A stretch of DNA of 64,000 bases from the NCBI RefSeq assembly GCF_900128965.1, contig NZ_FQUL01000001.1, forward strand, positions 47,932 to 111,931, read 5' to 3'. The notes beneath the pieces are model-generated. The model was not told where the DNA came from and did no database searches. It saw only the letters and a program-made list of their open reading frames with translations. This DNA is from Ferrithrix thermotolerans DSM 19514. Its GTDB lineage: Bacteria; Actinomycetota; Acidimicrobiia; Acidimicrobiales; Acidimicrobiaceae. A program made the position numbers and the translations under genes. Below, piece after piece: positions 43,153-60,479 of the stretch; positions within the stretch are counted from its first letter, which is position 1; every line of letters begins with the position of its first letter.

Positions 43153-44484
43153 GTGTCAATTAGAGTCAAGGCAAGTCCAGCTATAGAGATTCTGGGGGTA
43201 GGAGACCAAGTAGCCATTGGACTGCGGTCTCTTCCCCTGGGTCTTGTAAAGTCTTTCCCCTACCACTACGAACGACACGTCAAAGATCAGATATCTAACA
43301 CCGAAGCCCGGCTCATCGAGGAGTCCGTCTTATACCTAGAACCCGAATCTGATGGTGCCCAAGAGGACGTCGGTTTCGTGGTTCCGACAAGAGATCCGAA
43401 CCCTTGTGATCTGAAGCGCACGCTCGCTTCAATCAGAAAGTTTTCCACATGTGCGCCACTGGTTGTAGTGGACGACGGATCCAAAAACGGCGACGAGGTT
43501 CTACGCCTGACTCGATCCTACGGCGGCTCGTACGTAAGGATACCCACACCGCATGGACCTGGGTTTGCCAGAAACACTGGCGCTGCAACTCTTATCAACG
43601 ATATTATTGTCTTTGTAGACTCTGACGTGGAGTTTGAGTCCAGACAGCTTTCAACGGTTCTAGCACTTTTTGAAGCACAAGACGTCGTTGCGTCTGCGCC
43701 AAGGATCCTCTCAAAAAGCTCACGAAGCGCTACCGATCTTTTGAGAGATACCCACTTCGAACTCGACATGGGACCAGTCTTTGCATCAGTTCCAAGCCCT
43801 TATGTCCCTTATTTACCAAGTGCAACGCTGTGCGTAAGGAGAGGTGCGTTTGAGGAGTCGGGGGGTTTCGATCCCACGTTGTTTTTGGGAGAAGACGTAG
43901 ATCTTGTCCTTAGGCTCCACCGACTCGGTCGCATCTACTACCTTCCTTCAGCTACGTTCTTCCACAAAGACACGCCTAATCCACTTAGAGCCTTTGAAAA
44001 GTCTTTTCGATACGGTCTTTCTTACTCAGATCTTCACAAAAAACATAGAGATCGCGTTCATACTCTCCCTCTTACCGCAAGAGATCGAGCTATCTTCATC
44101 GGCACCAACCTGCTAATCGGTCCAGATCTAACTGCGATTGTCAAGCTCCTGCTACGACTATTGCGTATCCTTGCGCACGCTAAAAGACTTGGCGTCCACC
44201 TGGATCGCGGGGGTATAGAGATCGCAACCAAAGCTGCATACAAAGATGTATTTAGGGAGATATCTGAGCTGTGGCTTCGGGTGTGGATCCTTCCCTTGGT
44301 CCTGGCGTCTTTATTTTCGACCAGGTGCCGTAGATTCCTACTGCTTTCCGCCTCAATCAAGTACCTTAGGTGGAGGTCAAAGACACAAGAACCCTTCACT
44401 CAGATGATCGCTTCTGACATAGGTTACTCCTTTGGAGTCATCACCTCATTGGTACTCGGTGCTGCACAGGAGATTCTTGCCTAA
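43153..44484 (+). CDS. mftF: MftF-like mycofactocin glycosyltransferase
   Basis: A 443-residue GT-A family 2 glycosyltransferase. Sequence landmarks: VVVDDGS (104-110), GPGFARNTGA (135-144), the DxD motif FVDSDVE (154-160), ELDMGP (203-208), YLPSATLCVRR and GEDVDLVLRLH (246-256), then FRYGLS. The ELDMGP, GEDVDLV, FRYG combination is the signature of MftF, which attaches glucose units to mycofactocin. The C-terminal third has hydrophobic segments. The rest of the mft cluster (mftA-E) is not in this window. GTG start; it overlaps the acetyltransferase frame only in an out-of-frame region. Confidence 0.85.
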   Translation: MSIRVKASPAIEILGVGDQVAIGLRSLPLGLVKSFPYHYERHVKDQISNTEARLIEESVLYLEPESDGAQEDVGFVVPTRDPNPCDLKRTLASIRKFSTCAPLVVVDDGSKNGDEVLRLTRSYGGSYVRIPTPHGPGFARNTGAATLINDIIVFVDSDVEFESRQLSTVLALFEAQDVVASAPRILSKSSRSATDLLRDTHFELDMGPVFASVPSPYVPYLPSATLCVRRGAFEESGGFDPTLFLGEDVDLVLRLHRLGRIYYLPSATFFHKDTPNPLRAFEKSFRYGLSYSDLHKKHRDRVHTLPLTARDRAIFIGTNLLIGPDLTAIVKLLLRLLRILAHAKRLGVHLDRGGIEIATKAAYKDVFREISELWLRVWILPLVLASLFSTRCRRFLLLSASIKYLRWRSKTQEPFTQMIASDIGYSFGVITSLVLGAAQEILA

Positions 44485-44545
44485 GTCTTCACTGTGTGAA
44501 CGAGGATGTCGAAATAGTAGAGTTTATAAATGTAAGGAGGAAAAG

Positions 44546-45130
44546 ATAGCTCATCACACCCACGCCTTTGACGACAAGAGTGAGCTGAAGGGCGAGAATA
44601 TCTACCTTCGGCAACTCTTAGACAAAGACGCCCCCAAGATGCTTGATATAAGGATTAGAAATAAGGAGTTCTTCAAACCCTACGACCCTCCTGTTCCTCC
44701 AAGATACTTCACCTTACAGGGGCAGCTTGAGATCATACGCGAGTTTCAAAGATCTTACACAAACGGTACCGCAGCAGGATTTGGAGTATTTCTAGGCGAT
44801 TCAGACGAACTTATCGGACGTGTCGCTTTGAGGAACATACAGAGGGGAGCTGCTCAGAGCAGCACGCTTGGATACTTTGTAGACCAGCGATACACGAATC
44901 GTGGATATATCACAGAAGCCGCCGGTCTGTTGGTAAAGTATGCCTTTGATGTCCTTGGTCTTCACCGTGTGGAAGCTGCAATAATGCCGAGCAACGCAGC
45001 ATCGATAAGGGTCGTAGAAAAGTTAAAGTTCAGACGAGAGGGACTAGCGAGATGGCTTTTATTTATCGATGACGACTGGAAAGATCACTACATCTTCGCC
45101 ATCACCAAGTCGACATCTCTGAAGAAGTAG
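44546..45130 (+). CDS. GNAT acetyltransferase (RimJ/RimL type), probable ATA start
   Basis: A 194-residue RimJ/RimL-like N-acetyltransferase with GENIYLRQLLDKDA near the start, DELIGRVALRNI, and the acetyl-CoA loop region YTNRGYITEAAG, then AAIMPSNAASIRVVEKLKF. The only in-frame canonical starts upstream lie inside the mftF gene (frame open back to 44432). A strong AAGGAGG (44534-44540) sits five bases before ATA 44546, so ATA is the best start on ribosome-binding evidence; this is unusual. The substrate is unknown; proximity to mftF may be coincidental. Confidence 0.78.
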   Translation: MAHHTHAFDDKSELKGENIYLRQLLDKDAPKMLDIRIRNKEFFKPYDPPVPPRYFTLQGQLEIIREFQRSYTNGTAAGFGVFLGDSDELIGRVALRNIQRGAAQSSTLGYFVDQRYTNRGYITEAAGLLVKYAFDVLGLHRVEAAIMPSNAASIRVVEKLKFRREGLARWLLFIDDDWKDHYIFAITKSTSLKK

Positions 45131-59852: not shown

Positions 59853-60479
59853 CTACGAGGCGGTGCCACCTATACTGCTAGCTGCCTCACCGGTCTCCAT
59901 CACAACTGCGTTGGTAACCTTCGCCTGAGGCGAGTCGCTCTTCGAAGATCCGCCGACCTTCCGATCCGGAGCTAAAACCATGAGCATGTTCCTGCCGTCA
60001 AGTTTTGGAGCTACCTCAACCTTGCCCACTTCAGTGACCGCTTCGGCGATTCGGTCCAAAATATCCTTACCGATCTCCGGGTGATAAAGCTCTCGTCCTC
60101 TGAACATGATGGTGACCTTTACCTTGTGTCCCTCTGAAAGGAACTTTGCAACCTGACGTGTCTTGGTATCAAAGTCTCCAGTTCCTATCTTTGGACGGTA
60201 CTTCATCTCCTTGATCTGGGCTGCGGATGACCTACGTCTAGACTCCTTGGCTTTTTGGGCTGCGTCAAACTTGAACTTTCCGTAATCCATTATCTTGGCA
60301 ACGGGCGGATTGGCCATCGGAGCCACCTCAACGAGGTCCATATCCATACGTCTGGCTAGTTCTAGAGCTTCCTGAATCGGTCTCACACCTAGCTGTTTGC
60401 CCTCTGGATCAACTAAACGGACTTCACGAACTCTAATTCTTTCGTTTATCCGCGGCTCGCTTGATATTGGTGTGGCTAT
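59853..60479 (-). CDS. infC: Translation initiation factor IF-3, probable ATA start
   Basis: A 208-residue IF-3. The conserved N-terminal motif INERIRVREVRLVDPEGKQ lies upstream of the first canonical start (GTG 60386), so the real gene begins earlier. An in-frame TAG at 60482-60480 is followed directly by ATA 60479 (M-ATPISSEPRINER), with GGGAG nine bases upstream; a second ATA is four codons on. E. coli infC also uses a non-canonical AUU that IF-3 itself controls, so an AUA start fits autoregulation. The N domain and C domain (about 115-185, VKVTIMFRGRELYHPE) are intact; the last 30 residues are an extra Ser/Ala-rich tail. First gene of infC-rpmI-rplT. Confidence 0.93.
   Translation of the reverse strand: MATPISSEPRINERIRVREVRLVDPEGKQLGVRPIQEALELARRMDMDLVEVAPMANPPVAKIMDYGKFKFDAAQKAKESRRRSSAAQIKEMKYRPKIGTGDFDTKTRQVAKFLSEGHKVKVTIMFRGRELYHPEIGKDILDRIAEAVTEVGKVEVAPKLDGRNMLMVLAPDRKVGGSSKSDSPQAKVTNAVVMETGEAASSIGGTAS

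Follow-up and report, generated by a model that had tools for sequence, protein, structure and literature searches.

A RimJ-like acetyltransferase gene of Ferrithrix thermotolerans whose likely AUA start codon aligns with ATT in two congeners

The window analysed here is a stretch of 64,000 nucleotides from Ferrithrix thermotolerans DSM 19514 (contig NZ_FQUL01000001.1). It contains a gene for a GNAT acetyltransferase, which is preceded on the same strand by genes for an MftF-like glycosyltransferase and an NDMA-dependent alcohol dehydrogenase. The features discussed are listed in Table 1. Against the RimJ equivalog model the GNAT product reaches about half of the curated cut-off of 190 bits and thus fails it. 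Because of this profile score we call the product RimJ-like only and not a true RimJ equivalog. A search at E up to 1e-20 found GNAT proteins of this type in 183 of the 198 genomes of the order, mostly with about 40% identity, and they have ATG, GTG or TTG starts wherever the start could be judged.

The original prediction had placed the start of the GNAT gene at an ATA codon behind a near-perfect Shine-Dalgarno (SD) sequence. Direct reading of the sequence confirms the AAGGAGG five bases before ATA 44546, with AAAAG as the spacer. From this ATA the frame is open until the TAG at 45128-45130, which gives 194 codons plus the stop. The mftF stop (TAA 44482-44484) sits 61 nt upstream of the ATA, and between this stop and the GNAT domain the window sequence holds no in-frame ATG, GTG or TTG, as had been claimed. 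The first in-frame ATG lies 93 nt 3' of the ATA. The prediction was silent on TTG 44477, which lies further upstream, where the GNAT frame continues open into mftF and also contains TTG 44432 and GTG 44459. With the frame open into mftF and TTG 44477 standing behind an AGGAG, the window sequence alone leaves a longer protein possible.

Table 1. Coordinates of the features discussed, in window positions unless another sequence is named.
Feature	Position	Strand	Basis or remark
MftF-like glycosyltransferase, upstream of GNAT	43153..44484	+	TIGR03965 198 bits, under the cut-off of 280
Alternative start TTG, within the 3' end of mftF	44477..44479	+	AGGAG 44468-44472, 4-nt spacing; equivalent upstream start blocked by stops in both congeners
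Possible 17-codon ORF, GTG...TAG	44496..44549	+	Stop overlaps the GNAT start as ATAG; no SD seen; may be chance
Shine-Dalgarno AAGGAGG	44534..44540	+	Direct reading; GAGGAGG/AAGGAGG equally spaced in congeners G215/G216
ATA start codon, GNAT gene	44546..44548	+	Aligned with ATT in two congeners
RimJ-like GNAT acetyltransferase	44546..45130	+	PF13302 83 bits; closest NCBIfam equivalog RimJ (PRK10809) 95.6 bits
infC (IF3), ATA start 60477-60479	59853..60479	-	ATA directly after in-frame TAG; second AUA gene of the window
tsaD	L177:5602-6621 = G000 C49:85602-86621		ATT behind GAGGTGA, likely start

Two congeners, G215 (contig JAJYHJ010000077.1) and G216, carry the GNAT gene, and the proteins are 66-67% identical. 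The start site reads GAGGAGG-CAGCG-ATT in G215 and AAGGAGG-CAGCG-ATT in G216, with a 5-nt spacing in both. An in-frame stop is found nine codons upstream of the ATT in both genomes, therefore a start further upstream is impossible there. G216 has no in-frame ATG, GTG or TTG anywhere before the GNAT domain, and in G215 the sole canonical candidate before the domain is a TTG nine codons beyond the ATT, which has no SD. From the ATT onwards both genomes encode IKRQQ with only two differences, which are synonymous (AAG/AAA and AGA/CGA), and the two ATT codons may stem from one event. In the fourth congener, G217 (assembly 76% complete), the GNAT gene was not found. G222, which belongs to another genus and shares the MftF-GNAT order, reads AGGAG-ATG within two or three codons of the ATA position. 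The distance from the start to the conserved Asp-Ala is 29 residues in the window genome, 32 in both G215 and G216, and 31 in G222.

Orthologues had been expected to align their start with the ATA, in the form of ATG or GTG. The alignment of the position was borne out, but the expected codon was not, as both congeners have ATT and only G222 has ATG. That the two congeners conserve the non-canonical class rather than ATG or GTG gives the ATA start stronger support, together with the matching SD, its spacing and the upstream stops in the congeners. Judged by this alignment, the GNAT gene almost certainly starts at the ATA. Comparison of the genomes shows both where the start lies and that the AUH class (AUA, AUU or AUC) is conserved, with ATA/ATT/ATT within the genus and ATG outside it in G222; the class conservation spans three genomes of the genus, and the genomes searched are draft assemblies.

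Translation could alternatively begin at TTG 44477 in the end of mftF, which would add an N-terminal extension of 23 residues and turn the ATA into an internal Ile codon. This TTG is in frame, closely follows an AGGAG and is separated from the ATA by no stop. We nevertheless consider it very unlikely as the start, since the in-frame stops of G215 and G216 make an equivalent start impossible there. The stretch ahead of the conserved aspartate would also grow to about 51 residues, versus about 19-34 in the order-level homologues (by eye), and the near-perfect SD at 44534-44540 would be purposeless. The same strong SD would go unused if the gene started at CTG 44585, which is in frame, 39 nt after the ATA and just before the domain, where many GNAT homologues start. 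This CTG has only a weak SD and the equivalent CTG is absent in both congeners, which makes it a highly improbable start. We give next to no credence to a sequencing or assembly error, or to a decaying gene: the assembly is a draft and ATA differs from ATG by a single base, but two separately assembled congeners read ATT and not ATG, and the frames are intact across the whole domain.

Another explanation accepts the ATA and changes the way by which ribosomes reach it. In coupled reinitiation, ribosomes that end an overlapping upstream frame would restart at the AUH codon and tolerate its poor quality. The GNAT start does overlap a stop in all three genomes, as ATAG in the window and as ATTAA in G215 and G216. 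In G216 (L039) the TAA belongs to the MftF-like frame, which extends further there than in the sister species, and in G215 the stop closes a short ORF that has an AGGAG-N5-ATG of its own. An overlap with the MftF frame itself is present in G216 and absent in the window genome and G215. The coupling to mftF is thus not conserved whereas the SD is: in the window, 61 nt separate the mftF stop from the GNAT start, and no SD is visible for the overlapping ORF. Moreover, ATAG overlaps are easily produced by chance. As the main route, coupled reinitiation is a tentative possibility. Programmed frameshifting from the upstream frame into GNAT was also considered and rejected, because no slippery sequence is common to the three genomes and GNAT is equipped with an SD itself. 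Folding of the RNA near the GNAT start yielded no consistent structure in four genomes.

We also asked how often an SD stands before an ATH codon by chance. With both strands counted, the 2.49-Mb genome has 63 AAGGAGG-N4-7-ATH sites, compared to 54 for the reversed control, while AAGGAGG-N4-7-ATG occurs at 51 sites versus 25 in the control and is thus twofold enriched. The lack of enrichment for ATH next to the twofold enrichment for ATG indicates that AUH use in this genome is local and not general. In a given 60-nt gap on a single strand, about 8e-4 AAGGAGG-N4-7-ATH sites are expected, and the GNAT site recurs in the same position in both congeners, which makes chance untenable for it. Nearly all of the 63 sites were inspected, and the only plausible gene starts among them were that of GNAT and an ATC site at C43:155545. 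A coding-potential screen of 630 kb of the window genome found no general shift to AUH relative to control codons; in the comparison genome G032 (69% GC) the screen produced so many false hits that it did not make a useful control. Only one Met-type tRNA, with the normal CAT anticodon, was detected in the 31 stretches scanned, a minor part of the genome, and an altered initiator tRNA may be encoded elsewhere.

Within the 630 kb, the AUH starts seen besides that of GNAT were those of infC and tsaD, and possibly the ATC site. The infC gene is located about 15 kb from the GNAT gene on the opposite strand. Its ATA start, which was part of the original prediction, is confirmed by the in-frame TAG directly before it and is kept across most of the family. 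Among the relatives read, which cover all genera but one, four other genera keep the ATA, a fifth likely does so with a frame that is open further upstream, and one genus uses ATC. The leader GGAGTGATG...ATA around the infC start is conserved in most family genera read, with ATC in one. AUA is evidently usable here, since infC begins at ATA in the window genome and the family uses ATA or ATC for it. The ATA/ATC pattern fits the autoregulation of infC by IF3, which is established (PMC5472188).

The tsaD gene of the window genome has no ATG, GTG or TTG from the upstream in-frame TGA to the invariant GIETSCDET. The likely ATT start shares bases with the stop codon of the gene before it (GATTAG), and the congeners use ATG or GTG. 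A substrate-binding lipoprotein gene (G000 C43:150044-151237) has AAGGGGGAG at a 6-nt spacing from an ATT in all four congeners (L134, L135, L255, L137). Three congeners read AAGGGGGAG-ATTAAR-ATT and have no canonical start before the hydrophobic stretch of the signal peptide, and the window genome reads ATT TCC ATG, so that an ATG follows two codons after the ATT. In the gene of a second substrate-binding protein (L132, G000 C43:155545) a near-perfect extended SD, AAGGAGGTGAACC, is found directly before ATC, with a GTG 39 nt on. This ATC is possibly an AUH start, and it is not conserved in the congeners. Taken together, these cases point to a few genes with AUH starts in the genus and not to an altered code or a generally relaxed machinery. 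A MetF-like frame at G000 C49 ~104662 (L178) begins mid-domain after a stop, which suggests an upstream frameshift or a sequencing error.

ATA and ATT belong to the class of start codons that IF3 discriminates against. We consider it likely (probability about 0.8) that translation of the GNAT gene begins at AUA 44546 by a low, IF3-sensitive initiation held by the SD, where initiation at this codon, its weakness and its IF3 dependence are argued by analogy with other bacteria. The near-perfect SD helix at 5-nt spacing would hold the 30S subunit on the AUA site, and the initiator tRNA would start there despite the mismatch between its CAU anticodon and the third base of the codon. Most of these complexes would be rejected by IF3, so that synthesis of the GNAT protein would be low and sensitive to IF3. 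Reinitiation by ribosomes ending an upstream frame may assist the start in G216 and possibly in the others.

The weak start looks selected, because two sister species use the equally rare ATT behind the corresponding ribosome-binding signal. The non-canonical class is kept although the proteins differ at about one third of their residues, which speaks for selection acting on the weak start itself. Its purpose is probably to hold the GNAT protein at a low level, as in comparable systems. It is unlikely that the genus keeps infC, GNAT, the substrate-binding lipoprotein and, in one species, tsaD as an IF3-tuned AUH regulon. If it did, the level or occupancy of IF3 would set the output of several genes beyond infC. 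If several genes in the genus share AUH starts, IF3-dependent translational tuning could be tested beyond the usual model bacteria. Gene finders admit only ATG, GTG and TTG, so genes with AUH starts are misplaced or dropped. To our knowledge, such starts are rarely documented outside infC, and the GNAT case is of interest for the conservation of the start class within a genus.

The GNAT gene adds one more case to the known class of AUH-start genes and is joined by two more AUU-start candidates in the genus; the mechanism is not new. It shares the AUH start with the infC genes (AUU/AUC/AUA), and AUA is the codon used by infC in the window genome and its family. Unlike infC, which autoregulates via its own product, GNAT is not known to be linked to the selection of starts, and its SD spacing is 5 nt compared to about 9 in the infC genes of its host's family. 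In S. aureus, AUA and AUU starts with extended SDs are functional in infC, ccpN, cvfC1 and citZ; in poor medium the three sites tested reached about 10% of the AUG level, and in rich medium ccpN reached up to 30% (PMC13009471). Like GNAT, ccpN (AUA), cvfC1 (AUU) and citZ (AUA) are genes other than infC with an AUH codon behind a strong SD. These are different genes from a different phylum and were demonstrated by ribosome profiling and reporters, whereas GNAT is known from genome comparison. The ccpN and cvfC1 starts are conserved among relatives, while the start class of GNAT is conserved only within one genus. In Streptomyces, infC starts at ATC and the GTC start of sigR is repressed by IF3 (PMC5472188). 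As an actinobacterial gene with a genus-conserved non-canonical start, sigR resembles GNAT; it differs in using GTC instead of an AUH codon, in setting a sigma/anti-sigma ratio and in an IF3 dependence that is experimental. The pcnB gene of E. coli, with an AUU start (Binns and Masters 2002, as cited in PMC13009471), is, as far as described there, like GNAT an enzyme gene limited by its AUH start, but it encodes a poly(A) polymerase and was tested experimentally.
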